A stretch of 64,000 nt of DNA from Rhodobacter sp. 24-YEA-8 (GTDB lineage: Bacteria > Pseudomonadota > Alphaproteobacteria > Rhodobacterales > Rhodobacteraceae), in assembly GCF_900105075.1 (NCBI RefSeq), contig NZ_FNSK01000001.1, forward strand, positions 2,121,001-2,185,000, given 5' to 3'. A program made the translations under genes and the position numbers. Positions 25,751 to 43,264 of the stretch are shown here, piece by piece. Numbering within the stretch: the first letter of the stretch is position 1; each line of letters begins with the position of its first letter. The notes below the pieces were generated by a model. That model was given only the letters and a program-made list of their open reading frames with translations. It did no database searches and was not told the DNA's origin.

Positions 25751-26926
25751 TCAGAGACCGCCCTGCCGCAGCCGCAGGACCAGTGATTCCAGCATCGCGT
25801 CACAGGCGGCAAGCTGGTCCCGGCTGACATATTCATCGGGCTTGTGGCCCTGGTCCATCGAGCCCGGGCCACAGATCAGCACCGGCAGACCCAGCGCCTG
25901 ATCGAAAAGCCCGCCTTCGGTGCCAAACGCCACTTTGATCAGCCCGGCCCCGGGCTCCAACAGCCTCCGGAGCCAGGCCACCGCCGGACTGTCTTGCGGG
26001 GTATCAAGGCCGGGATAGCCCGAGACCTCGTCAATCGCGATCCGCGCGGTGGGAAAGCGGTTGCCGTGGCGGGCCGCGATCTGGTCGGCAGCGCGGCGGA
26101 TATCGGCGAGAATCAGGTCGGGGTCATCGGCGGCTATATTGCGGATCTCGAAATCGATCTCACAGAGGTTCGGCACGATGTTCAGCGCGGTGCCCCCCTG
26201 CATCACACCGGCATGGATGGTCGAATAGGGAATGTCGTAATCCGGGTCCTGCGCGCCGGTCTCACGCAGCTGCGCCTGGGCCGCGTCAAGCGCCAGGATG
26301 AACTCCGCCCCCAGATGCAGCGCGTTCAGCGCCTTTGGCGCCAGCGCCGAATGGCCCTCGACTCCGTGGCAACAGGCTTTCAGCCCGCGTTTGCCCTTAT
26401 GGCCGGTGGCGATCTGCATCGAAGTCGGCTCGCCGATGATGCACAGCGCCGCCCGGTCCGCGCGCCCCGCCAGCGCGTCGATCAGCGAGCGCACACCGAT
26501 ACAGCCGATTTCCTCGTCATAAGACAGCGCCAGGTGCAGCGGCACCGCAAGGGGGCCGCGCGCCGCGAGCAGGGCCGCGCGGATCGCGCTTGCGACAAAG
26601 CCTTTCATATCGGCTGTGCCGCGCCCGTAAAGCCGGCCCTCAGCCTCGGTCAGTGTAAACGGGTCCATCGTCCAGGCCTGGCCCGCAACCGGGACCACAT
26701 CAGTATGGCCCGAAAGAATAACGCCCCCCGGCCCCTCCGGCCCGATCGTTGCCCAGAGATTGGCGCGGCTGCCATCGGGGGCGGCAAAACGTTCGATCCG
26801 CGCGCCGGCGGGCGCCAGCAGCGCCTCGACATAATCCAGCAGCGCGAGGTTCGGCTGGCGTGACAGTGTCGGCTCGGCAATCAGCCGGGCGAGAATATCA
26901 GTGGTTTCGGGGATCACATCAGACAT
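25751..26926 (-). CDS. M20 family metallopeptidase, ArgE-type N-acyl amino acid deacylase
   Basis: A 391-residue M20 peptidase of the acetylornithine deacetylase type. It has a metal motif in SGHTDVVPVAG, the bridging Asp in YGRGTADMKGF, the catalytic Glu pair in YDEEIGCIG, and a lid/dimerisation domain between. It hydrolyses N-acyl amino acids. The start is the ATG at 26924-26926 (MSDVIPETTD). It is the third gene of a ridA-DUF1028-M20 unit. Next to the amine-degradation genes, an N-formyl or N-acyl aspartate substrate is conceivable. Arginine biosynthesis is unlikely from the context. Confidence 0.83.
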   Translation of the reverse strand: MSDVIPETTDILARLIAEPTLSRQPNLALLDYVEALLAPAGARIERFAAPDGSRANLWATIGPEGPGGVILSGHTDVVPVAGQAWTMDPFTLTEAEGRLYGRGTADMKGFVASAIRAALLAARGPLAVPLHLALSYDEEIGCIGVRSLIDALAGRADRAALCIIGEPTSMQIATGHKGKRGLKACCHGVEGHSALAPKALNALHLGAEFILALDAAQAQLRETGAQDPDYDIPYSTIHAGVMQGGTALNIVPNLCEIDFEIRNIAADDPDLILADIRRAADQIAARHGNRFPTARIAIDEVSGYPGLDTPQDSPAVAWLRRLLEPGAGLIKVAFGTEGGLFDQALGLPVLICGPGSMDQGHKPDEYVSRDQLAACDAMLESLVLRLRQGGL

Positions 26927-26954
26927 CTGGCAGGGTCCGGCAAGGGCAGAAGCA

Positions 26955-26990
26955 GCGGTCGGGGAAGCGGGAGCCATTGTCCCCGACCGC
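26955..26990. terminator. GC-rich hairpin between the DUF1028 and M20 genes
   Basis: A perfect 10-bp stem GCGGTCGGGG (26955-26964) and CCCCGACCGC (26981-26990) with a 16-base loop in the 115-base gap between the two genes. No uridine run follows, so it may attenuate or stabilise message ends rather than terminate. Confidence 0.45.
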
Positions 26991-27041
26991 CCTCAGAGAA
27001 AGCAGGGCGCCTCCCCGAAAGCAAGTATCCCGGATCTCCCG

Positions 27042-27716
27042 TCACGGGTCTCCGGGCACGCCGTAACCGGGCGCGGCCGAAGGGTTCAGCGCACGGGTGA
27101 CATAGGCCTCCATCTCGGGTTGCCAGCGCGCCCATAGCGCGGCGCATTCGGCAATCGGGTCGCCCTCGGTCCAGTCGATGCGCAGATCCGCGACATTCCA
27201 GGACACTTTATCGACCATGACAAGGCCCATCGAATGTACCGGGCCTTCCTCGCCTCCGGCCTCCATCGCAGCGCGCATGGCGCCGAGCAGCCGGTCGCCG
27301 AGATGCCCCTTTGCCGCGGTGAAAGCCGCAACCATCGTGGCGGGAATGCTGTCAGAAGACAGCATATTGCCCGCAGCCACCACACCCTCACCCCGCGCCG
27401 AAGCGTGACGTCCAAGGGTACGTGCACCGGAATGGCTGGCAGTGCCGCCGGTCCGGTCAACCAGCGCGAGCTGGCGGTAGTCGATATGCGGCGCCTCTGC
27501 CATAAGTTGCGCCAGCGCCTCTGCGGCTGAAAGACCGGCGGCCATCAGGTCCAACCCTTTCGGCCCCAGTGACGGGTCGGTGATGTTCTGGGTCGAAACC
27601 GCCCCCACCCCGGCCCGGACATGGGCGCAGCGCGCCGCGACCGAAGGCGAGGACGAACTGACCGCGATCCCGAACATGCCGGTATCAGCGCAGCGGGCCG
27701 AGATGGAGAAGGTCAT
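27042..27716 (-). CDS. DUF1028 family protein (Ntn-hydrolase-like)
   Basis: A 224-residue member of the DUF1028 family, recognised by MTFSISARCADTGMFGIAVSS at the N-terminus and GAGVGAVSTQN-like sequence (RAGVGAVSTQNITDPSLG). The family is predicted to adopt an Ntn-hydrolase fold; the reaction is not established. It is linked to a RidA gene (4-base gap upstream) and an M20 deacylase. That trio recurs beside amine or peptide uptake systems in my experience of the group, so a hydrolytic step on an N-acyl or imine product is a guess. Confidence 0.82.
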   Translation of the reverse strand: MTFSISARCADTGMFGIAVSSSSPSVAARCAHVRAGVGAVSTQNITDPSLGPKGLDLMAAGLSAAEALAQLMAEAPHIDYRQLALVDRTGGTASHSGARTLGRHASARGEGVVAAGNMLSSDSIPATMVAAFTAAKGHLGDRLLGAMRAAMEAGGEEGPVHSMGLVMVDKVSWNVADLRIDWTEGDPIAECAALWARWQPEMEAYVTRALNPSAAPGYGVPGDP

Positions 27717-27720
27717 GGGA

Positions 27721-28143
27721 TTATGCCTCGTCCGGGATAACGGCAGTGGCCTCGATCTCGACCAGCCATTCCGGGCGGGCCAGGGCCGAAACCACGAGAC
27801 CGGTCGAGACCGGGAAGACCCCCTTCAGATATTCCCCCATCACATTATAGACCGCCTCGCGGTAGCGGATATCGATCAGATAGATCACCACGCGGCAGAT
27901 ATGGGTCAGATCCGAGCCGGATTCCTCCAGCAGCATCTTGATGTTTTCCATCGCCTTGCGCGCCTGGCCGGCCACATCACCGATGCAGACGCTTTCGCGG
28001 GTGTCGAGGTCCTGGCCGATCTGGCCGCGCACGAACACGGTCGCCCCGCGCGCCACAACGGCCTGGCAGAGGTCGTTGTTCAGCTTTTGCTCGGGATAGG
28101 TTTCTTTGGTGTTGAAGGGGCGGATCCGCGTGTGGACGGGCAT
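27721..28143 (-). CDS. RidA family protein (enamine/imine deaminase)
   Basis: A 140-residue YjgF/YER057c/RidA-fold protein with DLCQAVVARGATVFVRGQIGQDL and the downstream NIKMLLEESGSDLTHICRVVIYL block. The usual substrate-binding Arg occurs in CRVVIYL, while the C-terminal motif reads ALARPEWLVEIEATAV. RidA enzymes hydrolyse reactive enamines and imines released by PLP- or flavin-dependent amine metabolism. It is the first gene of the ridA-DUF1028-M20 unit and lies downstream of the amine dehydrogenase operon on the same strand. Confidence 0.85.
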   Translation of the reverse strand: MPVHTRIRPFNTKETYPEQKLNNDLCQAVVARGATVFVRGQIGQDLDTRESVCIGDVAGQARKAMENIKMLLEESGSDLTHICRVVIYLIDIRYREAVYNVMGEYLKGVFPVSTGLVVSALARPEWLVEIEATAVIPDEA

Positions 28144-28224
28144 GTCATGCTCCTGAAGGGTAAAGCCTTGGCCAAGATGTAGCGCGCTTGCCCCGGCCAG
28201 GGGATGAATATTTGTTGACCCTGT

Positions 28225-28237
28225 GTTTCAGCGAAAC
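28225..28237. promoter_or_regulatory. Palindrome upstream of ridA
   Basis: GTTTC-AGC-GAAAC is an exact 5-base-arm palindrome located 82-94 bases before the ridA start codon, in the gap after the GMC oxidoreductase gene. It may be an operator for the ridA unit; the regulator is unknown. Confidence 0.35.
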
Positions 28238-28288
28238 CTATGCCGCAGGCGTCCCCCGCCGCACCGGCGGCAGGGGCCCCGCGACGTG

Positions 28289-29887
28289 CTATGCGGCAAG
28301 GATCGCTCTTGCTGCCTTTTCGCCGATCATCTGGCTGGGCGCATTGGTATTGCCGCCGATCAGCGTCGGCATGACCGAGGCATCGGCGACGCGCAGCCCC
28401 TCGATCCCATGCACCTTCATCGAGACCGGATCGACCACCGCCATCGCATCCACCCCCATCTTCGCAGTGCCGACCGGGTGATAGACGGTCAGCGCCTCGG
28501 CGCGAAGGTAGGCGAGGATCTCGTCATCGGTGACGACGCCTGGCCCGGGCAGGATCTCGCGGCCCTGAAGGCTTGCCATCGGGGCGGCGCCAAAGATCCG
28601 GCGCGAGAGTTTGATCCCTTCGACCAGCACGCGCGCATCACGGAAATCGCTGAAGAAGCGGTGATCGATCTCATGCGTGATCTCATCGCCCTGGCGGCGC
28701 AGCCGGATCTCGCCGACCGAACGCGGGCGCAGGACGCAGGTGTGAACGGCGAAACCATGGCCCCATTCGACCAGCCGGCCGCGATGGCTGCGATAGCCGG
28801 GGACGAAATGGAACTGCACATCCGGCAGGTCATCCTCGGCCAGAGGCGTGCGGCCAAAGCCGCCTGCGACCACGTAATTCGTGGACAGCATCCCCTTGCG
28901 GTTTGCGGCGAAGCGGAAGGGCGCGGCCAGCAGTTTCAACGAGTTGCGCAGTGAAAAGCCCAGCGTCCTGGTCGAATCTGATCGCACCGTGATCATGCCG
29001 TCGACATGGTCTCGCAGGTTCTGACCTACACCGGCCAGGTCATGGACCACGTCCACCCCCTGCCCCTGCAAGGCGGCGCCGGGCCCGATCCCCGATGCCA
29101 TCAGCGCCATCGGTGTGCCAATCGCTCCGGTCGAGAGCACGACCTCCCCCCGGCAATGGATGATCTCGCGGGAACCGCCACGCGTGACCTCGACCCCGGT
29201 GACGCGGCGGTCCTGCAGGATCAGGCGCTTCAGATCGGTGCCGGTCATGATGGTGAGGTTCGGGCGGCTCCGTACCGGCTCAAGATAGGCATTATAGGCG
29301 GAAAACCGGATGCCGTTCTTCTGCGTCACATCATAGATGCCAAGGCCGAGCTGGCTGTCACCGTTGAAATCCTGGTTGCGCGGCAGGCCGATCGTCTCGC
29401 CCGCGCGGATGTAATCCTCGCAAACCGGGTTCGGATCTTTCGGGCGGGCCACGATCAGCTCGCCTTTGGTGCCATGCAGACGCGGATCCTGGCCGACCTG
29501 GTTCTGCTCGAGATGTTTAAACAGCGGCAGAACATCCGACCAGGACCAGCCCTGACAGCCAAGCGCCGCCCATTCATCGTAATCCGCAGCAGCGCCCCGG
29601 ATATAAAGCATCGAATTCAGCGAAGAGGATCCGCCCAGCATCCGCCCCCGGTTGACCGGAATATTGCGGTTGTTCAGCTCGGGCTGCTTCACGCCGGTAT
29701 AGCCGTAGTCAAAGCGCTTGCGGCCATACATCGCAAGGATTCCGGCCGGCACTTTCACGCGGATATCGCGATCGGAGCCGCCGGATTCGATCACCAGCAC
29801 CGAGGTTTTCGGATTGGCAGAAAGCCGGTTCGCCAGCACACAGCCCGCCGCCCCGGCCCCGATGACGATATAGTCGAAAGCATCCAT
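28289..29887 (-). CDS. GMC family oxidoreductase (choline dehydrogenase-like)
   Basis: A 532-residue FAD enzyme of the glucose-methanol-choline family. The dinucleotide fold FDYIVIGAGAAGCVLANRL is at the N-terminus, signature 1 is GRMLGGSSSLNSMLYIRG, signature 2 is STGAIGTPMALMASGIG, and the C-terminal catalytic pair lies in VYHPVGTAKMG and GGNTNAPS. It oxidises an alcohol to an aldehyde. The frame can open at a TTG one codon earlier, but the ATG at 29885-29887 overlaps the upstream stop as TGATG. As the last gene of the amine dehydrogenase/Pot operon it may act on an alcohol side product. Confidence 0.87.
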   Translation of the reverse strand: MDAFDYIVIGAGAAGCVLANRLSANPKTSVLVIESGGSDRDIRVKVPAGILAMYGRKRFDYGYTGVKQPELNNRNIPVNRGRMLGGSSSLNSMLYIRGAAADYDEWAALGCQGWSWSDVLPLFKHLEQNQVGQDPRLHGTKGELIVARPKDPNPVCEDYIRAGETIGLPRNQDFNGDSQLGLGIYDVTQKNGIRFSAYNAYLEPVRSRPNLTIMTGTDLKRLILQDRRVTGVEVTRGGSREIIHCRGEVVLSTGAIGTPMALMASGIGPGAALQGQGVDVVHDLAGVGQNLRDHVDGMITVRSDSTRTLGFSLRNSLKLLAAPFRFAANRKGMLSTNYVVAGGFGRTPLAEDDLPDVQFHFVPGYRSHRGRLVEWGHGFAVHTCVLRPRSVGEIRLRRQGDEITHEIDHRFFSDFRDARVLVEGIKLSRRIFGAAPMASLQGREILPGPGVVTDDEILAYLRAEALTVYHPVGTAKMGVDAMAVVDPVSMKVHGIEGLRVADASVMPTLIGGNTNAPSQMIGEKAARAILAA

Positions 29888-31530
29888 CAAAGGGCTCCAT
29901 ATGTGATTTTGCCGGCGCAGATCGTCAGCGCGACAGAGGCTGCGGTCTCGCTGTCGGCGAGGCCTTCCAGGCTGCCATCGATCAGCACCAGATCGGCGTC
30001 AAAGCCGGGAACCAGCCGCCCGGCGCGGTTTTCCGCGAAATCGGCATGCGCGCCGCCGGTCGTGTAGGCGGCGAGGCAGTCGTCAAGGCTGACGCGCTGA
30101 TCGGGCAGATCCGCGCGCCAGGGCTTACGCGTCAGCGCGCAATGGATCGCGTAAAGCGGCGAGAGCGGCGAGACCGGCCAGTCCGTGCCAAAGGCCAGAG
30201 GCACATCGCGGGCAAGAACCATCGCCCAGGGAAAGGCGGTGGGCCAGCGCGCCGCGCCCATAATGGTGATCGTGGGCTCCAGCGGCAGGCCCGCCGAACC
30301 CGGCGGATGCACCGGCTGCATCGAGGCGGTGATGCCCAGCGGGCCGAGCCGGTCAAGGTCTGCAGGCGTGATCGTGTCGATATGTTCGATCCGGTGACGC
30401 GCGTCGCGCGGGCCATTGGCGGCGCGCGCCGCCTCATAGCCATCGATCACAGCGCGCACCGCGCCATCGCCCACCGCATGGGTGGTGATCTGCAGCCCCC
30501 TCCGGTCAGCCTCGACACAGATCGCGTTGAACTGATCCAGCGGGATCAGCGGCTCGGATCGGAAGCCGGGACGGTCGGGATAATCGGTAACCGTCAGCGC
30601 GGTCCAGGTATCAAACACCCCGTCCATGAACAGCTTTATGCGGGCAAATGACAGCCACCCCGGCACTTCCGGTCCGAATTCATCCAGCAGGTCAATACCC
30701 CCGACCCCGTCTTTCGCCTCGAGCATCAAAGGCAGGCTGACCCTGACCGGCATCTCGCCCGCCAGCGCCAGATCGCGCATCAGACCGGCCTGCCAGGCAT
30801 TGCCATCCATATTCACCGCGCGCGTGATGCCATGGCAGGCGCAGTAATCGCCTGCCGCGCGGATCACCGCCCGGTCATGGTCGCGCGCGCCCTCGCCTTC
30901 GGCGCCGGTCATGCGGTAATCCATCGCATCGCGCCCTTGCAGGCGAGAGAGCATCTTCACCCGGTTCATCGCAGCAAATTCGCGCAATTCACCACTGGCC
31001 AGCCCGTCTGCGCCCATCACCACCTCGGATCCCGGTCCGAGATCGGCGCCATTGAGGATCCCTGCCAGTTCCAGCGCCTTTGTATTGGCCCAGGCACAAT
31101 GCAGATCGGTCGCAATCAGGCAGAGCGGACGGTCACTGACAATCCGGTCGAGGATATGGCGATCAGGCCTTTCTTCGCCAAAAATCACATAATTCACCGC
31201 ATAGCCGAACAGGATGTCATTCCCGGGCTGGCGGGTCGCGAAGTCCAGAAGCGCATCCCGTACCGGATCGAACCCGAAAAGCTCGCCCATATTCAGCATC
31301 GAAAGCGAGGCGCCACCCATCATCAGATGCAGATGGCTTTCGATGAAGCCGGGCATCAGTTCGCGCCCGGCGGCGTCGATCACCCGGGTCGCCGGGCCGA
31401 TATACGCGCGGATCGCGCTGTCATCCCCAAGCGCCAGGATCACACCATCCGCCACCGCAATCGCGGTGGTGCCGGGGACGGCAAAAAGCGGGCGCAGGCG
31501 CGCGTTCAGGATCACCAGATCGGCGGTCAT
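29887..31530 (-). CDS. Amidohydrolase family 3 protein (YtcJ / N-substituted formamide deformylase type)
   Basis: A 547-residue amidohydrolase_3 protein. It has the metal motif FIESHLHLMMGG (His-x-His), a His in RIEHIDTI and the final Asp in AFGTDWPVSP. The subgroup includes YtcJ and the N-substituted formamide deformylase NfdA, and its members cleave amide or formamide bonds. The ATG (31528-31530) lies just past a strong terminator-like hairpin after potD, so expression depends on read-through. In the proposed imidazole-acetate route it could open imidazolone acetate or remove a formyl/formimino group; that is inference. Confidence 0.83.
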   Translation of the reverse strand: MTADLVILNARLRPLFAVPGTTAIAVADGVILALGDDSAIRAYIGPATRVIDAAGRELMPGFIESHLHLMMGGASLSMLNMGELFGFDPVRDALLDFATRQPGNDILFGYAVNYVIFGEERPDRHILDRIVSDRPLCLIATDLHCAWANTKALELAGILNGADLGPGSEVVMGADGLASGELREFAAMNRVKMLSRLQGRDAMDYRMTGAEGEGARDHDRAVIRAAGDYCACHGITRAVNMDGNAWQAGLMRDLALAGEMPVRVSLPLMLEAKDGVGGIDLLDEFGPEVPGWLSFARIKLFMDGVFDTWTALTVTDYPDRPGFRSEPLIPLDQFNAICVEADRRGLQITTHAVGDGAVRAVIDGYEAARAANGPRDARHRIEHIDTITPADLDRLGPLGITASMQPVHPPGSAGLPLEPTITIMGAARWPTAFPWAMVLARDVPLAFGTDWPVSPLSPLYAIHCALTRKPWRADLPDQRVSLDDCLAAYTTGGAHADFAENRAGRLVPGFDADLVLIDGSLEGLADSETAASVALTICAGKITYGAL

Positions 31531-31550
31531 CGGTCTCTCCGGCAGAATGG

Positions 31551-31580
31551 GAAAAAGGGGCCGGGATTGCGCCCGGCCCT
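31551..31580 (-). terminator. Strong terminator/attenuator after the polyamine-type binding-protein gene
   Basis: GGGCCGGG (31558-31565) pairs perfectly with CCCGGCCC (31572-31579) around a 6-base loop. On the transcribed minus strand it is followed by CUUUUUCC. It lies 13 bases past the binding-protein stop codon and before the amidohydrolase start. This should terminate most transcripts. Confidence 0.78.
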
Positions 31581-31592: not shown

Positions 31593-32609
31593 TTATTGCA
31601 GCAGCTGGGTCCAGACCCGGTTCACCAGATCCTGCGCCGCGGGCGAGCAGGTGCGCGAGAATTCAACCGGCACTTCCGGGTAAAGTTCGGGCGCTTTTTC
31701 CTTGGTATAGACGACCTTATCCGCGACCAGCGTCATCGGCGAGGAATGGGCGTAGAAGTTCATCTGCTCGGTCGCATTTTCCGGCTCTGACATGAATTCG
31801 ATGAACTTGATCGCATTCTCGCGGTTCGGGGCGCCATTCGGGATCACCATCGAGTCAATCCAGCCCACCAGGCCCTCTTTCGGCAGCGCATAGGCGAAAG
31901 GCGCGCCATTGACGCGGGCCTTCAGCTCTTCGCCATCCCACCAGAAATGCGCCGCAACCTCGCCCGAGGCCAGACGGCTTGCGATATTATCCGAGGAATA
32001 GGCCGCGACCGAGGGCTTTTGCGCCGCCAGCAGATCATAGACCTTCTTCATCTCATCAGCATTTTCCGAGCAGAACGGCACACCGAGGTAAAGCTGTGCC
32101 GCACCGACCACCTCATCGGGATAGGATAGCATGGCGATTTTGCCGGCCAGCGGCGCTTCAGGCTCAAAGAAATAGCTCAGACTGTCGAGCGGGCCGGTAT
32201 ATTCATTGGTGTTGACCGCGAAGCCGGCTGTGCCATAGGCGACCGGGATCGAATAGGCCTGGGTCTCGTCCCACCACTGGTTCTTCCAGCGCGGGTCGAT
32301 CAGCTCATAGGCTTTCAGCGTGTTCGCGCCGTAATCCTGGATCAGCCCCTCATCGATCATGATGCGCAGGAAATGCTGCGAGGGGGTCGAAACGTCATAG
32401 CCCGAAGACCCGGCCTGAAGCTTTGTCAGCAGATCCTCGTTCGAGGTATAGCCGTCGACATTGACTTTGACGTCATATTCTTTCGCGAATTTTTCAATCA
32501 GCTCAGGGGAAAAGCTTTCCGACCAGACATAAAGGTTCAGCTGGCCTGCGGCATTGGCAGCAGTCGCGGCGCAAAGCGCGATGACAGAGGCAGTGACGAG
32601 TTTTTTCAT
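31593..32609 (-). CDS. PotD-type spermidine/putrescine ABC transporter substrate-binding protein
   Basis: A 338-residue periplasmic protein. A clear Sec signal peptide (MKKLVTASVIALCAATAANA, cleaved before AGQ) precedes the PotD-like sequence LYVWSESFSPELIEKFAKEY, and the two-domain fold includes EPEAPLAGKIAMLSYPDE. PotD relatives bind diamines and related organic cations. Histamine, agmatine or polyamines are all compatible; the ligand cannot be read. It ends the potABCD-type block fed by the amine dehydrogenase promoter. Confidence 0.9.
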   Translation of the reverse strand: MKKLVTASVIALCAATAANAAGQLNLYVWSESFSPELIEKFAKEYDVKVNVDGYTSNEDLLTKLQAGSSGYDVSTPSQHFLRIMIDEGLIQDYGANTLKAYELIDPRWKNQWWDETQAYSIPVAYGTAGFAVNTNEYTGPLDSLSYFFEPEAPLAGKIAMLSYPDEVVGAAQLYLGVPFCSENADEMKKVYDLLAAQKPSVAAYSSDNIASRLASGEVAAHFWWDGEELKARVNGAPFAYALPKEGLVGWIDSMVIPNGAPNRENAIKFIEFMSEPENATEQMNFYAHSSPMTLVADKVVYTKEKAPELYPEVPVEFSRTCSPAAQDLVNRVWTQLLQ

Positions 32610-32638: not shown

Positions 32639-33439
32639 TCAGGTGTTTTTTGTGCCCCGCCCGGCGACGAGCAGCGCAATTGTGGCAAGGATCAGAGAGG
32701 CCAGGATCATCAGCGTGCCGATGGCGTTCAGCTCGGGCGAGGTGCCGGCGCGGATCAGCGAGAAGATATAGACCGGCAAAGTGGTGGTGCCGCCCGAGGC
32801 CAGCATGTTCGAGGTGATGAAATCATCCATTGAGATCAGGAAGGCGAGCATCGCGCCGGAAAACACCCCCGGAAAGATCAGCGGCAGCGTCACCCGGCGA
32901 AAGGTGGTCCAGCGGCTGGCATAGAGATCCGCGCTGGCCTCTTCGAAATCCAGCGACATGCCCTGAAGCCGCGCCCGTATCGGCAGAAAGGCAAAGGGCG
33001 TGCAAAAGGCCGAATGGGCGAGGATCAGTTTCAGAAGCCCGTTTTGCAGCCCGACCAGCGAGAACAGGATCAGGCTCGCCACAGCCAGCACGATTTCGGG
33101 CAGCAAAAGCGGCAGGTTCACCACCGTCTCGGACAGGCGCCGGAACCGCACATTCTTGCCCCGGATGATCGCGAGCGCCGCCATCAGCGCCACGGTTGTT
33201 GCGACCGCCGTCGCAATCAGCGCCACCAGAACCGAGGTTTTCAGCGCATTCATCAAGGGGCCGTTGTTCAGCGCGGCCACATACCAGTCGAGCGAAAATC
33301 CGGTCCAGACACCGGCGATCCGGTTGGCGTTGAAGGAATAGATCACCACGACCAGAAGCGGCAGATAGAGCCAGACGAAGAAGACAATCGTCAGAAGACC
33401 AAAGCCCGGATAGCGTTTGACATCATGATGGCGGCTCAT
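32639..33439 (-). CDS. PotC-type ABC transporter permease
   Basis: A 266-residue inner-membrane permease with about six hydrophobic segments and the EAA loop FEEASADLYASRWTTFRRV. It is the PotC-like partner of the polyamine/opine transporter class. It overlaps the potB-type gene by 4 bases at its start (33436-33439) and is followed by the binding-protein gene. Confidence 0.9.
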   Translation of the reverse strand: MSRHHDVKRYPGFGLLTIVFFVWLYLPLLVVVIYSFNANRIAGVWTGFSLDWYVAALNNGPLMNALKTSVLVALIATAVATTVALMAALAIIRGKNVRFRRLSETVVNLPLLLPEIVLAVASLILFSLVGLQNGLLKLILAHSAFCTPFAFLPIRARLQGMSLDFEEASADLYASRWTTFRRVTLPLIFPGVFSGAMLAFLISMDDFITSNMLASGGTTTLPVYIFSLIRAGTSPELNAIGTLMILASLILATIALLVAGRGTKNT

Positions 33440-35411: not shown

Positions 35412-35421
35412 CACCATTCCT

Positions 35422-37503
35422 TCAGAGCGGTTCGAGTTCGGTAACTTCGCGGCGGAACGGCAGCGCGTCGCCGATATCGGAGGTGTCGAGCTCGCGGGCA
35501 TAGCGGTGGCCGGCATAGGTCGCCCAGGCGATAGGCGCGGGCGCCGCCGCATCGCCGATCAGTTTGACCGACCGGATACCGGCATCGGCCCATTCGGCCT
35601 CGCGCGCGATAAGGTCGTTGTAAAGCGCATCATCGCCAAGGCGCGAGGCGACCATCACAACGGCATCGGCCGCGAGCTCGCGGCGATGGTCGGTATAGCT
35701 GCAATTGACCTCGACCGCGCCGGCGCGCACCGCCGTCATGCCGGTGTTCAGCCGGATCTCAACACCGAGCTCCACCAGCCGCAGATGGATCGCCCCCTGT
35801 TCCAGCGTGTTGCGCGTCCAGTCCGACACATAGGCCGAGGGCGTGACCAGGATCACCTTCGCGCCCGCTTTCGCCATCACCTCGGCCATGACGCCGCCCA
35901 TGTAATAATGATCATCATCATAAACGACGACCGTCCTGCCGCTCAGATCGGCGGGATGTTTCCCCGCCATCACATCATCAGGTGTCCAGACGGGCATGGC
36001 CGCATCAATCGCCATCGGCACCACATGCTGACGCGCGACACCATCGGCCCGCCAATGTGCCCCGGTCGCGATACAGATGTTCTGGAAGCCGAATTCAAGG
36101 ATCTCGGCCGCGCCCAGACGGCTGTCGAAATAGGTCTCGACATTCGGGCGCTGGCTGATCTGGTATTGCCGGTAATCGACCACGCGGCCCCAGGCAGAAA
36201 GCCCCGGCAGCAGGCGTTCGCGCGCGACACGGCCGCCAAGGGTCGTGGTCGCCTCGGCCATGGCGACGTCATAGCCCCGCAGGGACAGCGCGCGGGCGGC
36301 CTCCAGCCCGGCAGGGCCGGAGCCGACGATCAGCACGGTCGAGCTGTCGCCTTTGGCGTTCATCTTCTCGGGATGCCAGCCCTTGCGCCATTCTTCCATA
36401 AAGGTCGGGTTCTGGGTGCAGCGCGAGATCGACATCGTCATATCGCCGGTGATGCAGATATTGCAGCCGATACATTCGCGGATATCCTCGACCCGCCCCT
36501 CGTCAATCTTTTTCGGGATGAACGGATCGGCAATCGAGGGCCGCGCGCAGCCGATGAAATCAAGAACGCCCTGGCGGATCATCCGCGCCATCACATCCGG
36601 CGAGGTGAAGCGGCCCACGCCGACCACGGGTTTCGAGGACAGCTCGCGGATGCCGGAGACCAGCACCTCCTGCGCGGCTTCCTCTTTGAAGCGCGAAGGG
36701 CCAGAACAATCCTCCCATGCCCCCTGAGCCAGATCCCAGAGATCGGGAAGATCGCCGTTCAGTTCGACGAATTCGCGCACCTCGGCATTGGAAAAGCCAA
36801 GATTTCCAATCTGTTCGTCAAGGCTGACGCGCATGGTGATCGCCATCGTGTCACCCACGGCATCGCGGATATCCGCGACCACTTCGCGGGCAAAGCGCGA
36901 GCGGTTTTCCAGGCTGCCGCCATATTCATCGCTGCGCTGATTGGTGGCACGCGACAGGAAATGCTGGAAAATGCCGAAGCCATGCGCGCCGTAAAGGCAG
37001 ATCAGGTCAAAGCCGGCAAGTTTCGAACGTTTCGCGGCATTGACGAACCAGCGCCTGAGATCGGTGATGTCGGATTTCGACAGCGCGCGCGCCGAGACCG
37101 GGTCATTCGTGAAGGTGCGGATCGGCATGGCCGAGGGCGCCAGAGGCACCTCTTTGGTGTAGAAATTCGGGCCATTGATCCCGGAATAGGCCAGCTGGAT
37201 CCCCGCCAGCGCGCCATGGGTTTTCATCGCATCCGACATCCGGCGAAGCCCCGGAATGTCTTTGTCTTCCCAAAGCCTTAACTCGATGAAAGGGGTGATT
37301 TCCGAACTGTGATGCATCTCGGTCTGTTCGGTGAAAATGACCCCCCAGCCGCCTTCAGCCTTAATGCCACGCATGGCCGCAGCAGCAGATGGATCGCGGT
37401 AGCCGCCCCCATTGCAATGTGGCACCTGGTAAAAGCGGTTCTTCGCCACAAGAGGGCCAATGGCCAGCGGCTCGAACAGGATATCATATTTCGGGTCGCG
37501 CAT
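35422..37503 (-). CDS. TMADH-family flavoprotein amine dehydrogenase, histamine dehydrogenase-like
   Basis: A 693-residue iron-sulfur flavoprotein aligning end to end with trimethylamine dehydrogenase. Cys30 (QVPHC) is the covalent 6-S-FMN site and Y171/H174 (YGAH) are catalytic. C344, C347, C350 and C362 (CIGCNIC, then x11-C) hold a 4Fe-4S cluster, and VGSGPAGLEAA (about 393) begins the ADP-binding domain. The TMADH aromatic bowl Tyr60/Trp264/Trp355 is replaced by Q60/W256/D354. As I recall, that is the Gln/Trp/Asp set of histamine dehydrogenase, and it argues against trimethylamine. The reaction would be oxidative deamination of a primary amine to an aldehyde and ammonia. The start is the ATG at 37501-37503. 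It heads the Pot transporter operon behind a LysR-type box. Confidence 0.85.
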   Translation of the reverse strand: MRDPKYDILFEPLAIGPLVAKNRFYQVPHCNGGGYRDPSAAAAMRGIKAEGGWGVIFTEQTEMHHSSEITPFIELRLWEDKDIPGLRRMSDAMKTHGALAGIQLAYSGINGPNFYTKEVPLAPSAMPIRTFTNDPVSARALSKSDITDLRRWFVNAAKRSKLAGFDLICLYGAHGFGIFQHFLSRATNQRSDEYGGSLENRSRFAREVVADIRDAVGDTMAITMRVSLDEQIGNLGFSNAEVREFVELNGDLPDLWDLAQGAWEDCSGPSRFKEEAAQEVLVSGIRELSSKPVVGVGRFTSPDVMARMIRQGVLDFIGCARPSIADPFIPKKIDEGRVEDIRECIGCNICITGDMTMSISRCTQNPTFMEEWRKGWHPEKMNAKGDSSTVLIVGSGPAGLEAARALSLRGYDVAMAEATTTLGGRVARERLLPGLSAWGRVVDYRQYQISQRPNVETYFDSRLGAAEILEFGFQNICIATGAHWRADGVARQHVVPMAIDAAMPVWTPDDVMAGKHPADLSGRTVVVYDDDHYYMGGVMAEVMAKAGAKVILVTPSAYVSDWTRNTLEQGAIHLRLVELGVEIRLNTGMTAVRAGAVEVNCSYTDHRRELAADAVVMVASRLGDDALYNDLIAREAEWADAGIRSVKLIGDAAAPAPIAWATYAGHRYARELDTSDIGDALPFRREVTELEPL

Positions 37504-37601: not shown

Positions 37602-37620
37602 GCTTAGACTGCGCCTAATC
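37602..37620 (-). promoter_or_regulatory. LysR-type box upstream of the amine dehydrogenase operon
   Basis: On the minus strand the site reads GATTAG-GCGCAGT-CTAAGC. The TTAG-N7-CTAA core (37604-37618) contains the T-N11-A spacing typical of LysR regulators. It lies about 100 bases before the start codon. A second copy with the same flanks is found before the monooxygenase gene at 43246-43264. Confidence 0.6.
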
Positions 37621-37745: not shown

Positions 37746-37803
37746 CCCCGCCGCAAGAGGGGATGCGACGGGGGAACGGGCCGGAACCAGGCCGCCCGGC
37801 CTG
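37746..37803 (-). terminator. Tandem GC-rich hairpins downstream of the aldehyde dehydrogenase gene
   Basis: Two stems lie just past the stop codon: CCCCGCCGCA (37746-37755) with TGCGACGGGG (37764-37773), 9 of 10 paired, and the perfect CAGGCCG/CGGCCTG (37788-37794 and 37797-37803). No uridine run follows, so Rho-independent termination is uncertain. Confidence 0.4.
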
Positions 37804-37827
37804 CGCCCGAAAAAGAGGCTTAGCTGC

Positions 37828-39318
37828 TTAGTATTTGATCCAGATTGTTTTCAGCGCCGAATATTTGTCAAAGCTGTGCAAGGACAGATCCCGGCCGAAT
37901 CCCGATTGTTTCATACCGCCAAAGGGCGTCATCGCGGAAAGCGCATCCACCGTATTGACTGATACCGTCCCCGCATGGAGGCCATCCGACACTGACAGGG
38001 CCCGGCTCAGATCCCGGGTCCAGACCGAGGCCGCGAGGCCATATTCGCTGTCATTGGCGATCTTCAGCGCCTCTTCCTCGCTGTCAAACGGTGTCACGGC
38101 CAGGACCGGGCCGAAGACCTCTTCCTTCGCGATCCGGGCGTCAGGCGAAACATCGGCAAAGATCGTGGCGCCGATATAGCAATCCGATCCGTCACGGGTC
38201 TCGCGGTCCCCGCCATGCACCAACCGCGCCTCGGCCTTGCCGATCTCGATATATTGCGCGACCTTGTCGGCATGGGCTTTTTCCACCAGCGGCCCCATGC
38301 GGGTGGCCAGATCCAGCGGGTCGCCCAGCGGCCAGGCGGCTGTGGCCGCGATCAGCTTTTCGGTGAATTCCTCCTGCACCGAGCGCGCGACGAGGATGCG
38401 GGAATTGGCAGAACAGACCTCGCCCGAATTGAACAGGATCCCGAAGGCCGCCATCGTCGCGGCCTGGTCCAGATCGGCATCGGCGAAGATCAGGTTCGGC
38501 GATTTGCCTCCGGTCTCCAGCCAGACCTGTTTCATATTGCTTTGGGCGGCATAGTTCATGAACCGCTTGCCGGTCGCGGTCGATCCGGTGAAGACCAGCG
38601 CATCGACATCGCCGTGCAGGCCAAGCGCCTGGCCTGCCTCGACGCCGTAACCCGGAACCACATTCAGCACCCCGTCAGGCAGCCCGGCCTCAGAAGCAAG
38701 TTCGGCAAGGAACAAAGCCGACAAAGGCGATTGTTCGGCCGGTTTCAGCACCACGGAGTTCCCCATGGCCAGTGCGGGTGCGAGTTTCCAGGTCGCCATA
38801 TCGAGCGGGAAGTTCCACGGCACCACCGCCCCGATCACGCCCAGGGGCGCGCGCCGGATCAGAGCCAGATCGCGGCCTCCCGTGGGCGCGACCTCGTCAT
38901 AAAGCTTGTCGATGGCCTCGGCATGCCACTGGAAGAAATGCGCCGATCCGGGAACGTCGATGGTCGAGCTGTCACCGATGGGCTTGCCCATATCCAGCGT
39001 TTCCAGCAGCGCCAGTTCCGCGACATTCTCGCGGATCAGGCCTGCGAGCTTCAGCAGCACCTCTTTGCGTGCCGAAGGCGTCTGACGCGACCAGCGCCCG
39101 TCGTCAAAGGCCCGCCGTGCCGCCGTCACCGCAAGGTCAATATCCGCCGCCATGCCGCGCGACACTTCGGTCAGCACGGTGCCATTCGCAGGGTTCACCG
39201 TGGCAAACCGCCCGCCCGCCTGTGCATCCCGGAACGCCCCGTCAATATAAAGCTGGTTGCGAAAGCGAAGCGCGCCGGCACGGGCGCGCCATTCGGCGGA
39301 GGTGGCGGGAAGGGTCAT
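37828..39318 (-). CDS. NAD(P)-dependent aldehyde dehydrogenase (PuuC/gamma-glutamyl-aminobutyraldehyde dehydrogenase type)
   Basis: A 496-residue class I aldehyde dehydrogenase. Cofactor site VIGAVVPWNFPLDMATWK, catalytic Glu in WLETGGKSPNL, nucleophile Cys in NSGEVCSANSR, and the C-terminal PFGGMKQSGFGRDLS are all intact. The closest recognisable type is PuuC, which handles aldehydes from amine oxidation. Here it would oxidise the aldehyde made by the amine dehydrogenase operon; imidazole acetaldehyde fits the pathway model. It is the last gene of the monooxygenase-aspA-lysR unit, 13 bases after lysR. Confidence 0.88.
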   Translation of the reverse strand: MTLPATSAEWRARAGALRFRNQLYIDGAFRDAQAGGRFATVNPANGTVLTEVSRGMAADIDLAVTAARRAFDDGRWSRQTPSARKEVLLKLAGLIRENVAELALLETLDMGKPIGDSSTIDVPGSAHFFQWHAEAIDKLYDEVAPTGGRDLALIRRAPLGVIGAVVPWNFPLDMATWKLAPALAMGNSVVLKPAEQSPLSALFLAELASEAGLPDGVLNVVPGYGVEAGQALGLHGDVDALVFTGSTATGKRFMNYAAQSNMKQVWLETGGKSPNLIFADADLDQAATMAAFGILFNSGEVCSANSRILVARSVQEEFTEKLIAATAAWPLGDPLDLATRMGPLVEKAHADKVAQYIEIGKAEARLVHGGDRETRDGSDCYIGATIFADVSPDARIAKEEVFGPVLAVTPFDSEEEALKIANDSEYGLAASVWTRDLSRALSVSDGLHAGTVSVNTVDALSAMTPFGGMKQSGFGRDLSLHSFDKYSALKTIWIKY

Positions 39319-39331
39319 GGTCTTGCTCCTG

Positions 39332-40279
39332 TCAGGTCTCGGGCGGCACCGAGAGGCGGCGAATTCCGGGATGCACCCCGTCTTTCAGCTTCTCGCTGCA
39401 AAATTCGATGAAACGGCGCACGGTCAGCGATTTCGCCGCGTCGCGCATGGTGATGATCCCGAGCCGCATCGGGCGCGGATTGCCGCTCAGCGGGATGTCG
39501 ATCAGCCGCCCGCCATCCAGCGCCAGATCAATCGCGGGCCGGATATTGGCGATGGAATAGCCGAAGCGATTGGCCACCAGGGCCCGCATCACCCAGATGT
39601 CACGGGTCCGCTCGACGATATTGGGGCTGCACCCGGCCTCGCGGAACAGCGAGATGAAATAGCTGGCACTATAGGGCAGATCGAGGAGGATCATCGGGTG
39701 TTCAGCCAGATCCTCAAGGCTGACACTGTCACGATCCGCCAGCGGATGGCCCTCGTGCAGGACCGCATGAGGCGGCAGCGCGCCCAGCTCGTGGAACTCC
39801 ATATCCGACGGGATATCAAGGTCATAGCTCAGCGCGAGGTCAAAGCGCGCCAGCCGCAGGCCTTCGATGATACCCGCATGATCCAGCTCGTTCTGGGCGA
39901 ATTCCACCTCGGGATAGCTTTCGCAGAAGGTGCGACGCAACGCGGGGATCACGACCTGCGCAAAGGTCATCAGGCAGGCGACATGCAAGGGCCCGCGCAC
40001 CTGCCCCGTCACCTCATTTGAAAGCGCGTTGAGCGCGGCCGCCTCGGTCAGGATGCGGCGCGCCTGTTCGACAAAGCTGCGCCCGGCCTGGGTCAGCGAC
40101 AGCCCATGCGCGTGGCGGCGCACGAAAAGCGTGATGCGGAATTCGCGCTCCAGCTGCGAGATGGCCGCCGAAACCGAGGGCGCCGAGACATTCACCCGCT
40201 CTGCCGCCTCGGTGACCGAGCCATAATCCCCCACCGCCACCAGATATTCCAGCTGTCTGAGCGTGAACCTGAGCGCCAT
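39332..40279 (-). CDS. LysR family transcriptional regulator
   Basis: A 315-residue LysR protein. The N-terminal helix-turn-helix is MALRFTLRQLEYLVAVGDYG then VNVSAPSVSAAISQLEREF, followed by a periplasmic-binding-protein-like effector domain. The start is the ATG at 40277-40279; the longer frame adds 39 unrelated residues. It lies inside the operon it may control, between aspA and the aldehyde dehydrogenase gene. It is the natural candidate to bind the two shared GATTAG-N7-CTAAGC boxes. Confidence 0.88.
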   Translation of the reverse strand: MALRFTLRQLEYLVAVGDYGSVTEAAERVNVSAPSVSAAISQLEREFRITLFVRRHAHGLSLTQAGRSFVEQARRILTEAAALNALSNEVTGQVRGPLHVACLMTFAQVVIPALRRTFCESYPEVEFAQNELDHAGIIEGLRLARFDLALSYDLDIPSDMEFHELGALPPHAVLHEGHPLADRDSVSLEDLAEHPMILLDLPYSASYFISLFREAGCSPNIVERTRDIWVMRALVANRFGYSIANIRPAIDLALDGGRLIDIPLSGNPRPMRLGIITMRDAAKSLTVRRFIEFCSEKLKDGVHPGIRRLSVPPET

Positions 40280-40392
40280 CCCTGCCCCTTTCCGATCCCC
40301 TGTTGCCGGCGGAGCATAGACCAGACAGGGGCCCGACCGCGAGACTTGCGCGGGCCCGGTGGCTGAAACTTTGACGGGGCGCGCGCCAGAGC

Positions 40393-41817
40393 TCATCCCC
40401 CCCTCACCTGCGGTGAGATCAGGGGCCGAGAGGGCCGGGTCAGGTGTTCCGGGCTGAGGATCGTGGCCAACAGCGCCTCGGGCAAGAGCCCGCGCTCCAG
40501 CGCAAGCTCGCAGACGCCCCGGCCCGAGGCAAAGGCCTCGCGCGCCAGCTCGGTCGCGTTTTCATAGCCAATATAGGGGTTCAGCGCAGTGACGATGCCG
40601 ATGGATTGCGTCACCGACTGCGCCAGCGCCGCGCGATTGGCGGTGATGCCCGTGATGCAATGCGCGCGCAGGGTCTCACATCCCGCCGTCAGATGGCGGA
40701 TCGAGCGCGAGATGGTACAGGCGATCACCGGCTCAAAGGCATTCAGCTGCAACTGCCCGGCCTCGGCCGCCATGGTGATCGTGATGTCATTGCCGATCAC
40801 CCCGAACGCGATCTGATTCACCACTTCGGGAATCACCGGATTGACCTTGCCGGGCATGATCGACGACCCGGCCTGGCGGGCGGGAAGGTTGATTTCATTT
40901 AACCCCGCACGGGGGCCAGAGGATAAAAGCCTGAGATCGTTGCAGGTTTTAGACAGCTTCACCGCCACCCGCTTCAACACGCCCGAGACCTGAACAAAGA
41001 CGCCGCAATCCTGGGTCGCCTCGATCAGGTCGGGCGCGTTGATCAGCGGAATGCCGGTCAGCGCCTCAAGACGGGCGCGGGCCCGTGCGGCATAATCGGG
41101 ATGGGCGGTCAGGCCCGTGCCGACGGCTGTCGCGCCAAGGTTGATCTCACATAACAGCGCGCGGGCCTCGCAAAGCCGCGCCTCGTCTTCGGCCAGCATG
41201 GTGGCGAAGGCGCCGAATTCCTGACCCAGGGTCATCGGGACCGCTTCCTGAAGCTGGGTGCGGCCCATCTTGAGGATATCGCTGAACTCCGCTGCTTTGG
41301 CCGCGAAAGCCTGCCGCAGATCCGCCATCGCGGTCAGAAGCCGGCCAATCGCCGTCCAGGTCGCCAGCCGCAGCGCGGTCGGATAGACGTCATTGGTACT
41401 TTGGCCCAGATTGACATGCTCATTCGGGTGCAGATGCGCGTAATCGCCTTTCGTCCGGCCCATCAGTTCCAGCGCGCGATTGGCGATGACCTCATTCGCG
41501 TTCATATTGGTCGAGGTACCGGCCCCGCCCTGCATCTGATCGACCAGGAACTGATCGCGCAGCGCGCCCGCCATGATCTCACGGCAGGCGGCGATGATCG
41601 CGGCGGCATGGGGCCCCTGCAGCAGGCCAAGATCGCGATTGGCCTCGGCCGCGGCCAGTTTGATCGCGGCCAGCGCATGGATCAGATCGCCCTCTTCGCC
41701 GATCACCCGGCCCGAGATCGCGAAATTCTCACGCGCCCGCAGGGTATGGATGCCCCAATAGGCCGCACCCGGCACCTCGCGCGGGCCAAGCAGATCCTGT
41801 TCGATGCGGACGGTCAT
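40393..41817 (-). CDS. aspA: Aspartate ammonia-lyase (aspartase)
   Basis: A 474-residue fumarase/aspartase superfamily enzyme. Motifs are GGAGTSTNMNANEV, HPNEHVNLGQSTNDV and the mobile catalytic loop GSSIMPGKVNPVIPE. The first motif and the length favour aspartase over class II fumarase; argininosuccinate lyase is excluded by size. It converts aspartate to fumarate and ammonia. The start is the ATG at 41815-41817 (MTVRIEQDLLG). Its place in an amine-oxidation operon is notable. Bacterial histamine catabolism is known to run through aspartate to fumarate, so aspA would be the terminal step. Confidence 0.85.
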   Translation of the reverse strand: MTVRIEQDLLGPREVPGAAYWGIHTLRARENFAISGRVIGEEGDLIHALAAIKLAAAEANRDLGLLQGPHAAAIIAACREIMAGALRDQFLVDQMQGGAGTSTNMNANEVIANRALELMGRTKGDYAHLHPNEHVNLGQSTNDVYPTALRLATWTAIGRLLTAMADLRQAFAAKAAEFSDILKMGRTQLQEAVPMTLGQEFGAFATMLAEDEARLCEARALLCEINLGATAVGTGLTAHPDYAARARARLEALTGIPLINAPDLIEATQDCGVFVQVSGVLKRVAVKLSKTCNDLRLLSSGPRAGLNEINLPARQAGSSIMPGKVNPVIPEVVNQIAFGVIGNDITITMAAEAGQLQLNAFEPVIACTISRSIRHLTAGCETLRAHCITGITANRAALAQSVTQSIGIVTALNPYIGYENATELAREAFASGRGVCELALERGLLPEALLATILSPEHLTRPSRPLISPQVRGG

Positions 41818-41841
41818 TGCGGCTCCGGCAAGCGGGGTCAG

Positions 41842-41863
41842 TCCCGGGCGACGACCCGCCCGG
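41842..41863. terminator. Hairpin between the monooxygenase and aspA genes
   Basis: CCCGGGCG (41842-41849) pairs with CGCCCGGG (41856-41863) around a 6-base loop in the 70-base gap. There is no uridine run; partial attenuation or message stabilisation is possible. Confidence 0.4.
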
Positions 41864-41887
41864 GGGGATGTTACGGCAAGGCCTAGA

Positions 41888-43132
41888 TCAGGCCGGAACC
41901 GCCTGCTCTGCCGCGATATGACCGGCAAGCCGGTCAGCATCATGCCAGACCCCCCAGATGAAAGAGGAGCCGCGCATCGACAGCCAGGGCAGACCGAGGA
42001 AGTAAAGCCCCGGCACCGCCGAGACGCCGCCTGAATGCGCCGGGCGACCGCGTTCATCGAAGATGTCGGCCTTGATCCAGCTGAAATCCAGCGCATAGCC
42101 AGTGGCCCAGAGGATCGTGGTGATACCCTCTTTCGCCAGATCCAGCGCCAGCACGGGATCGGTGAGGCAGGCAGGATCCGCGCCGATCAGATGCGCCTCG
42201 GGTTCCTCGGGCAAATCGAGGCCCTGGCTTGCCACATGGGCATCGGCCTGCTGCAAAAGGCCGAGGTAATTCGCATCGCCCTGCGCCACATTCTTCGCCA
42301 GATCGGGCGCGAAATGCATCACGCCATTCTCATAGCGCGCGGTCATCCCGACAAGCCCCATGCCTTCATTCGCAAGGCGGCGGAAATCGACGGTCTGCCC
42401 CCCCCGCGCGCCGCTGACCGCGATGGTCACATGTTCGGTGCCGGGTGTGGGCGTGGTCGTGTCCCAGATACCAAGTGCGCCCAGCCACCAGACGAAATCC
42501 TTGCCGCGATAGCGCCGCGGCGGGCGGTCATGCGCCCCGACCGAGAGCCAGACTTTGCGGCCCGCGCGCCGCAGCTCATCGGCGATCTGCACCCCCGAAG
42601 ACCCGGCACCGACCACAAGCACGCCGCCTTCGGGCAGCTGATCGGGGTTCTTATAGCCATGCGAATGCAGCTGATGCAGACCGGCACTCGCGGGCACCAC
42701 CGGCGGGATCACCGGTTTCTGGAACGCGCCGGTGGCCGCCACAACATTCTGCGCCTCGATCACGCCTTCGGAGGTCTCGACCCGGAAACCCGTCTCAAGC
42801 GGCTGAACAGAAGTGACCGTCACGCCGCAGCGCACCGGCGAGTTGTTTTGCGCGACGCAGGCCTCGAAATAGGCCGCAACCCGGTCGTGATGGGCAAAAG
42901 CGTCGGGGTCGAGCTCCTCGAAGGTCAGCGTCGGGAAACGGTCATGCCAGACCGGGCCATTGGCCACCAGCGAATCCCACCGCGCCGTGCGCCAGCTTTC
43001 CGCGATGCGGTTCTTTTCCACCACCAGATGCGACAGGCCGCGCCGGCCCAGATGCTCGCTCATCGCGACACCGGCCTGGCCGGCCCCGATCACGAGAGTA
43101 TCGACTTTTTCGACAGACGTTTCGGCGGACAT
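41888..43132 (-). CDS. Flavin-containing monooxygenase (CzcO/FMO-like)
   Basis: A 414-residue class B type flavoprotein. FAD-binding GAGQAG lies near residues 17-22 (DTLVIGAGQAGVAMSEHL) and NADP-binding GAGSSG in the middle (GVLVVGAGSSGVQIADEL). An ATGY-like segment, ILWATGYALDF, precedes the C-terminus. Such enzymes insert one oxygen atom using NADPH and O2. Leading the aspA-lysR-aldehyde dehydrogenase unit, it is a candidate imidazole-acetate monooxygenase. This is inference from gene content; no pocket residues can be read for that substrate. Confidence 0.82.
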   Translation of the reverse strand: MSAETSVEKVDTLVIGAGQAGVAMSEHLGRRGLSHLVVEKNRIAESWRTARWDSLVANGPVWHDRFPTLTFEELDPDAFAHHDRVAAYFEACVAQNNSPVRCGVTVTSVQPLETGFRVETSEGVIEAQNVVAATGAFQKPVIPPVVPASAGLHQLHSHGYKNPDQLPEGGVLVVGAGSSGVQIADELRRAGRKVWLSVGAHDRPPRRYRGKDFVWWLGALGIWDTTTPTPGTEHVTIAVSGARGGQTVDFRRLANEGMGLVGMTARYENGVMHFAPDLAKNVAQGDANYLGLLQQADAHVASQGLDLPEEPEAHLIGADPACLTDPVLALDLAKEGITTILWATGYALDFSWIKADIFDERGRPAHSGGVSAVPGLYFLGLPWLSMRGSSFIWGVWHDADRLAGHIAAEQAVPA

Positions 43133-43245
43133 TTCGGCTTCCTCACGCGGAAAGTGACAGAGGGTGACCGCCGGATCGGCCGGTCGCCTGAGGAAATGAT
43201 GCCGCTGAAAAACCTGATTTGCCTATGAGCGTTTCTTGCAGCCCT

Positions 43246-43264
43246 GATTAGGGCGGCGCTAAGC
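43246..43264 (+). promoter_or_regulatory. LysR-type box upstream of the monooxygenase-aspA operon
   Basis: GATTAG-GGCGGCG-CTAAGC, with the TTAG-N7-CTAA core at 43248-43262. It lies about 116 bases before the monooxygenase start codon. It matches the box at 37602-37620 in 13 of 19 positions, including both six-base arms. Confidence 0.6.

Follow-up and report, generated by a model that had tools for sequence, protein, structure and literature searches.

A predicted histamine-to-fumarate catabolic regulon headed by a histamine dehydrogenase in Rhodobacter sp. 24-YEA-8

The stretch of Rhodobacter sp. 24-YEA-8 DNA analyzed here, hereafter the window (64,000 nt; contig NZ_FNSK01000001.1, positions 2,121,001 to 2,185,000), carries a gene cluster that we read as a predicted complete histamine-to-fumarate catabolic regulon of an alphaproteobacterium, with a probability of about 0.88. 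All of its named genes lie on the minus strand between positions 25751 and 43132, which confirms the same-strand operons described in an earlier, sequence-only reading of this DNA. The proposal of histamine degradation made there is likewise supported, in that a gene of the trimethylamine dehydrogenase (TMADH) family matches histamine dehydrogenase (HDH) in sequence and pocket and its neighbors match the hin set of Pseudomonas.

In the route predicted for this organism (activities, intermediates, transported substrate and inducer alike), a PotABCD transporter would import histamine, which HDH would oxidatively deaminate to imidazole acetaldehyde. An aldehyde dehydrogenase (ALDH) would convert the aldehyde to imidazole acetate, and a HinF-like flavin monooxygenase (FMO) would oxidize the imidazole ring. 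The RidA (HinL), DUF1028 (HinH) and M20 (HinG) proteins would then turn the monooxygenase product into aspartate by way of formimino- and formyl-aspartate, and the aspartate is what aspartase would split into fumarate and ammonia. A HinK-like LysR regulator, probably sensing imidazole acetate, would switch both operons through the palindrome TTAG-N7-CTAA.

Entry enzyme and hin-type neighbors

The TMADH-family gene (35422–37503) encodes an HDH orthologue as judged by sequence and pocket, of the type with 6-S-cysteinyl-flavin mononucleotide (6-S-cysteinyl-FMN) and a 4Fe-4S cluster. Its best match in the PDB is the HDH of Rhizobium sp. (6de6), with 597 of 693 residues identical (86.1%) and a score of 1410.9 bits; Nocardioides HDH (824 bits), 6l6j (661 bits) and trimethylamine dehydrogenase (527 bits) are weaker matches. 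The sequence CIGCNIC, which we take to be the 4Fe-4S motif, is found at position 344. Orthologues and their surroundings were compared in 80 HDH loci, the best 80 of 570 confirmed places from an HDH scan of genome contigs, with up to 10 kb fetched on each side (less at contig ends). The cysteine for 6-S-cysteinyl-FMN (C30) is present in the window enzyme and in all 80 orthologues, which are also invariant at F72, E74, Y171, H174, W263 and D354. Q60 is kept in 79 of them (one undetermined), position 265 is Asp in 73 and Glu in seven, and position 262 is Thr in 63, Ala in 12 and Ser in five. Out of 19 residues named for the pocket, tunnel or substrate contact in the passages covered of PMC10180351, the window enzyme keeps 18, the sole change being T262 to Ala. 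Among paralogues at a greater distance, two (54.7 and 55.7%) have H174 replaced by Lys and D265 by Asn, and in a third, at 48.4%, Q60, E74, D265 and D354 are all changed. The histamine-dehydrogenase-type entry enzyme suggested previously is thus borne out by the identity to 6de6 and by the retained pocket.

According to the parts of PMC6467879 and PMC8231116 covered, Pseudomonas converts histamine to imidazole acetate by HinC (an aminotransferase) and HinD (an aldehyde dehydrogenase), imidazole acetate to aspartate by HinF (a flavin adenine dinucleotide, FAD, monooxygenase), HinL (an enamine deaminase) and the amidases HinH and HinG, and aspartate to fumarate by HinI (an aspartase); HinK, a LysR regulator that answers to imidazole acetate, controls hinFLHG. 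The window has a match for every hin role described there except those of HinC and HinA. Neither the HinC aminotransferase nor the HinA permease was seen in the locus, to which this search was confined. With HDH and PotABCD in their place, the set would be a variant of the hin pathway.

The HinF-like FMO (41888–43132), a predicted imidazoleacetate monooxygenase from its similarities and gene order, scores 359 bits against TIGR04046, under the cut-off of 498, and is 62% identical to P0031, a flavin monooxygenase of Pseudomonas putida. The HinI-like aspartate ammonia-lyase (aspartase; 40393–41820) reaches 672 bits against the aspA model TIGR00839 (cut-off 681.2) and 725.8 bits against NF008909, above its cut-off of 510. 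Its best PDB match is 1jsw, an L-aspartate ammonia-lyase, and it carries GSSIMPGKVN and GQSTND, which we take to be aspartase motifs. The HinD-like ALDH (37828–39318), predicted to act on imidazole acetaldehyde to give imidazole acetate, scores 553.6 bits against Aldedh and is PuuC-like (625 bits, short of the 850 that the PuuC model requires). The remaining hin-type genes form a unit of their own. RidA (27721–28143, HinL-like) and DUF1028 (27042–27716, HinH-like) are assigned by family match and linkage, the latter with 216.7 bits as the sole match in the genome at E ≤ 0.001. The M20 protein (25751–26977), a HinG-like amidohydrolase of the ArgE family and predicted N-formylaspartate deformylase, exceeds the cut-offs of NF005710 (485 versus 412 bits) and TIGR01892 (355 versus 298 bits), models whose names reflect the family and not the substrate.

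RidA, DUF1028 and M20 stand in the same order as in clusters of Pseudomonas (L143) and Burkholderia multivorans (L088), where the row FMO, RidA, DUF1028, M20, with LysR alongside, agrees with hinF-L-H-G. Locus L143 is called Pseudomonas on the basis of its monooxygenase, which shares 93% and 90% of its residues with named Pseudomonas proteins; a further locus, L145, is called so solely through the genus label that it has in common with L143. RidA would thereby correspond to HinL and, from gene order and named roles, DUF1028 to HinH and M20 to HinG. The order FMO-RidA-DUF1028 is kept in other classes of the phylum, in which FMO matches at E ≤ 1e-110 were found in 35 of 398 genomes. In 29 further loci of this search (4.2 kb each), the three genes are in order in 25, the others having RidA without DUF1028 in the short stretch (two), neither gene (one) or HDH adjoining FMO (one). 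Another locus (L136) holds a class-III aminotransferase, an amino-acid permease, an aldehyde dehydrogenase, LysR, M20, DUF1028, RidA and FMO in one row, as would be expected of this plan in a form with HinC and HinA.

For ring opening and deformylation, the sequence-only reading had offered either the amidohydrolase of the Amidohydro_3 family or M20. The M20 protein is retained, since with RidA and DUF1028 it matches hinL-hinH-hinG; Amidohydro_3 is not needed, and it was rejected as the default ring-opening enzyme because it is near HDH in 14 of the 80 loci versus 67 for RidA and 64 for DUF1028. The aspartase had been singled out as the telling part. An orthologue is near HDH in four of the 80 loci only and a 55% paralogue is encoded elsewhere in the genome, so that it was dropped as a diagnostic gene; LysR, the monooxygenase, RidA and DUF1028 are the usual partners.

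Linkage among genomes and a shared operator

The partners of HDH in the 80 loci are LysR (70), FMO (69), RidA (67), DUF1028 (64) and M20 (57), followed by PotC (48), PotA (46), ALDH (45), Amidohydro_3 (14), a GMC-family gene (10) and aspartase (4). FMO, RidA, DUF1028 and LysR occur together in 58. A less biased test used 196 evenly drawn genomes of the order, searched for HDH and FMO with the top candidates per genome scored; the cut-offs (at least 66% for HDH and at least 56% for FMO) were set at clear gaps after the list had been seen, the next values being 55 and 41%. HDH was found in 31 genomes and FMO in 62, with FMO in 31 of the 31 HDH genomes versus 31 of the 165 others (Fisher p of about 4e-19, shared ancestry ignored). 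The two genes are no more than 12 kb apart on one contig in 26 of the 31 genomes and on different contigs in five. Outside the order, the Ideonella locus L091 has HDH (59%), ALDH and LysR, with M20 about 9 kb further, and no FMO, RidA or DUF1028 within 22 kb. Where a search for co-occurrence of the dehydrogenase, monooxygenase and aspartase genes had been proposed, the first two hold together, and the aspartase is seldom near HDH in the 80 loci.

The palindrome TTAG-N7-CTAA is matched exactly 5′ of the monooxygenase operon (43248–43262) and 5′ of the HDH operon (37604–37618), and its core includes T-N11-A, the LysR rule. A longer pattern read off these two sites, GATTAGG-N6-CTAAGC, is exact at 37602–37620 and 43246–43264 with no third match in the window at up to two mismatches; shuffled controls gave a mean of 0.58 matches, and 13 of 100 shuffles reached two. 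Counts of TTAG-N7-CTAA with at most one mismatch in the window alone show no excess (two found versus 2.58 expected). The strong evidence for the box is genome-wide and comparative. In the 5,011,740-base genome the exact palindrome occurs at four places, versus 44 for the reversed pattern, and two of the four are the window promoters. The other two (G000:C1:1644404–1644418 and 1847905–1847919) are TTAGAA-N3-TTCTAA palindromes, of a kind also seen in several relatives, which are probably the sites of another regulator and which we take for iron-regulator sites.

Among related loci, 42 of 80 regions upstream of HDH hold the exact box, as do 39 of 71 upstream of FMO and 26 of 48 upstream of PotA, with a background of 114 in 5506 consecutive 300-nt windows, true sites included. 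The 80 HDH loci hold 129 exact boxes, of which 119 fall no more than 400 nt 5′ of a cluster gene, and a spacer changed to 3–6 or 8–13 yields zero to three sites in the same DNA. Six genomes of one genus in the same class (L130–L135) have the exact box at HDH in all six and at FMO in five; L131 has an extra exact box in front of a gene for an NMT1-type transporter, after which come an ABC ATPase gene and GMC. The LysR-type box that the sequence-only reading saw in common to both operons is therefore real, with its scarcity in the genome and its recurrence upstream of the same genes in relatives. Another candidate for the conserved box, CTGATTAG, proved weak (upstream of HDH in one of 80 and of FMO in seven of 72, with 15 of 5506 background windows), and the N7 palindrome took its place.

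The HinK-like LysR protein (39332–40279) that would bind this box has 6m5f (194 bits) and 3fzv (191 bits) as its best PDB matches. The LysR protein beside the FMO-RidA-DUF1028-M20 cluster of the Pseudomonas locus L143 scores 543 bits against 6m5f, which is presumably HinK. No mention of 6M5F by name was found in the parts of PMC10912698 or PMC8231116 covered.

Importer, accessory genes and alternative inputs

The importer consists of a PotA-type ABC ATPase (34326–35417), PotB-type (33436–34329) and PotC-type (32639–33439) permeases and a PotD-type solute-binding protein (31593–32609) for which histamine binding is predicted. PotA, scored on a longer open reading frame (ORF), reaches 364 bits against TIGR01187 (potA; cut-off 355.6), and the permeases have PotB (195.6 bits, cut-off 348) and PotC (208.4 bits, cut-off 326) as best NCBIfam matches, both below cut-off. 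Two Pot types are found among the 80 HDH loci: a window-like type (PotD at least 57% identical) in 18 and another (30–45%) in 32, with no PotD in view in 30.

Two accessory genes follow the importer, encoding an Amidohydro_3 protein (29887–31530; 278 bits in Pfam) and a choline dehydrogenase-like GMC dehydrogenase (28289–29890; below cut-offs). GMC at 64% or more and Amidohydro_3 at 53% or more occur in the same three of the 196 genomes, each beside HDH (p 0.004 for GMC); distant Amidohydro_3 relatives (at most 47%) are common, with matches at E ≤ 1e-100 in 43 of the 196. Amidohydro_3 accompanies the window-like Pot type in 12 of 18 loci, the other type in none of 32 and loci with no PotD in view in two of 30, the corresponding figures for GMC being nine, none and one; nine of the 10 GMC loci also hold Amidohydro_3. 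GMC-like genes stand by FMO in L130, L131, L132 and L134 (61–67%) and, outside the class, in L140 (54%) and L147 (48%), and by HDH in L091 (56%), also outside the class. The tie of both genes to the window-like Pot type argues for a second input. As a tentative suggestion, which we regard as rather doubtful, they and the distinct Pot importer might form an undescribed feeder branch, in which a conjugated or reduced histamine derivative (N-acyl-histamine or imidazole alcohol) would be taken up, freed or oxidized, and passed to HDH and the hin route.

The core of FMO without HDH is found in 31 of the 62 FMO genomes, so that imidazole acetate may itself serve as a substrate. In the 20 of these 31 that were fetched, RidA and DUF1028 are present in 16, a class-III aminotransferase is linked in two and the exact box is present in seven. 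A cytosine-permease-family gene, a candidate imidazole-acetate importer, lies beside hinFLHG-type clusters in L138, L140, L141, L143, L145 and L146. The window regulon could serve mainly external imidazole acetate, with HDH and the transporter as an optional feeder and histamine as one source of several; the linked aminotransferases and boxes just given would fit this, as would the cytosine-permease-type transporters adjoining such clusters in Pseudomonas and Burkholderia. In the window, however, the HDH-PotABCD and monooxygenase operons carry the same box, which makes histamine at least one full input, and we consider a regulon mainly for imidazole acetate to be quite improbable. It is also very unlikely that in nature another amine (such as agmatine, diaminopropane or a polyamine) is the chief substrate, imported by Pot and oxidized by the HDH-like enzyme beside an imidazole module with a separate job, as could be argued from the Pot-type importer, from agmatine and 1,3-diaminopropane having been docked as substrates to Rhizobium HDH (in the passages covered of PMC10180351) and from the monooxygenase in 31 of 165 HDH-less genomes, where the module can stand alone, since the monooxygenase is in all 31 HDH genomes, the same box serves both operons and the pocket is nearly unchanged from that of an enzyme described there as more histamine-specific.

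Several observations weigh against the histamine-to-fumarate reading. The PotD-like protein scores 153 bits, far under the PotD cut-off of 582, so that its ligand is not given by the family, and the resemblance of the regulator to the HinK candidate is only moderate (194 bits). The proposed Hin orthology was drawn from gene order, named functions and matches to Pseudomonas proteins, not from the deposited HinF, HinH, HinG and HinK sequences. No FMO is present in the fetched stretch at 11 of the 80 HDH loci (L018, L022, L027, L037, L039, L044, L046, L059, L061, L062 and L085); four of these (L037, L046, L061 and L062) have short fetched stretches of 8.7 to 13.4 kb, and at L039 HDH stands without any other cluster gene. 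In the 31 HDH genomes, an in-frame stop interrupts one FMO match (G155), and a contig end truncates one HDH (G191). The exact box is missing 5′ of HDH in 38 of the 80 loci, in 23 of these even at one mismatch, and three HDH genomes among 20 whole genomes searched (18 with HDH) have no exact box among the matches listed. At up to one mismatch the box is found nowhere else in the window, and hence not 5′ of the RidA unit. Outside the order, the Ideonella locus L091 has HDH (59%), ALDH and LysR, with M20 about 9 kb further, and no FMO, RidA or DUF1028 within 22 kb.

Layout, mobility and relation to known systems

The first operon runs monooxygenase, aspartase, LysR, ALDH, with hemC as the gene upstream, and the second HDH, PotA, PotB, PotC, PotD, Amidohydro_3, GMC; the third unit (RidA, DUF1028, M20) begins 145 nt after GMC. 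For aspartase, LysR, PotA and HDH, the program-called ORFs extend further, and internal starts were picked by eye from homologous N-termini, that of aspartase being placed at 41820. With the chosen starts, the gaps in the first operon are 67, 113 and 13 nt, and ALDH and HDH are 324 nt apart. HDH-PotA (4 nt), PotA-PotB (−4), PotB-PotC (−4), PotC-PotD (29), PotD-Amidohydro_3 (62), Amidohydro_3-GMC (−4), RidA-DUF1028 (4) and DUF1028-M20 (64) are the others. A terminator-like hairpin (31558–31579, minus strand; eight G-C pairs then CTTTTT, a consensus match only) lies between PotD and Amidohydro_3. A sigma-70 scan gave three sites versus 4.0 expected from shuffles, no excess. Just beyond M20 is an OYE-like flavin oxidoreductase gene (23892–25118), with an orthologue at 40% or more in none of the 80 HDH loci. 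Further along the minus strand (15689–20440), isochorismatase, chorismate-binding enzyme, MFS transporter and HlyD genes in a row are a putative part of a catecholate siderophore locus.

HDH at 60% identity or more was found in 18 of 2380 plasmid records with some match. A marine plasmid of Leisingera methylohalidivorans, typed conjugative, holds FMO, RidA, DUF1028, ALDH, LysR, HDH, a dodecin gene, an argE-type M20 gene and a four-gene Pot-type ABC importer in one row, from which aspartase is absent; such a row on a conjugative plasmid means that the capacity can probably move between bacteria. The dodecin gene there lies between HDH and M20 (L174 14085–14291). Shinella sp. WSC3-e carries the set on a single plasmid, where FMO lies some 41 kb from the rest.

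Compared with the hin pathway of Pseudomonas putida U and P. aeruginosa (hinABCD, hinFLHG, hinIJ and hinK; PMC6467879 and PMC8231116, in the parts covered), the window has the same predicted aldehyde-to-fumarate set, namely aldehyde dehydrogenase, FAD monooxygenase, enamine deaminase, two amidases, aspartase and LysR regulator. It differs in entry and import (HDH and PotABCD in place of the HinC aminotransferase and the HinA permease), in layout (one 17-kb locus versus four regions), in the additional Amidohydro_3 and GMC genes and in its operator, of which L143, L145 and L088, the Pseudomonas and Burkholderia stretches covered, have no exact copy. The Rhizobium sp. HDH (6de6), which the window enzyme resembles in identity, cofactor cysteine and nearly the whole pocket, is as known to us reported as an isolated enzyme, its gene context not being described in the passages covered. 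Brevibacterium cheese isolates, of another phylum, have homologues of HinF, HinG, HinH, HinI and HinL as here, with a histamine oxidase proposed for entry (PMC6467879, in the parts covered), in place of which the window has HDH and Pot.

The complete set had been put forward as possibly undescribed. Both HDH itself and the conversion of imidazole acetate to fumarate are in print. The papers found treat the Pseudomonas and Brevibacterium pathways or HDH; for a union of HDH and this route with PotABCD under one operator we found no publication, in a search that was weak on subscription papers and whose silence is no proof of absence. The parts are thus known, and the HDH-led assembly and its operator are new relative to the literature found. 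HDH, an enzyme class used in food assays, gains a predicted metabolic home, and the imidazole-acetate module appears as a common core to which exchangeable entry enzymes and importers are attached. The operator helps to locate the regulon in relatives, and DUF1028 and the two accessory genes become testable parts of it.

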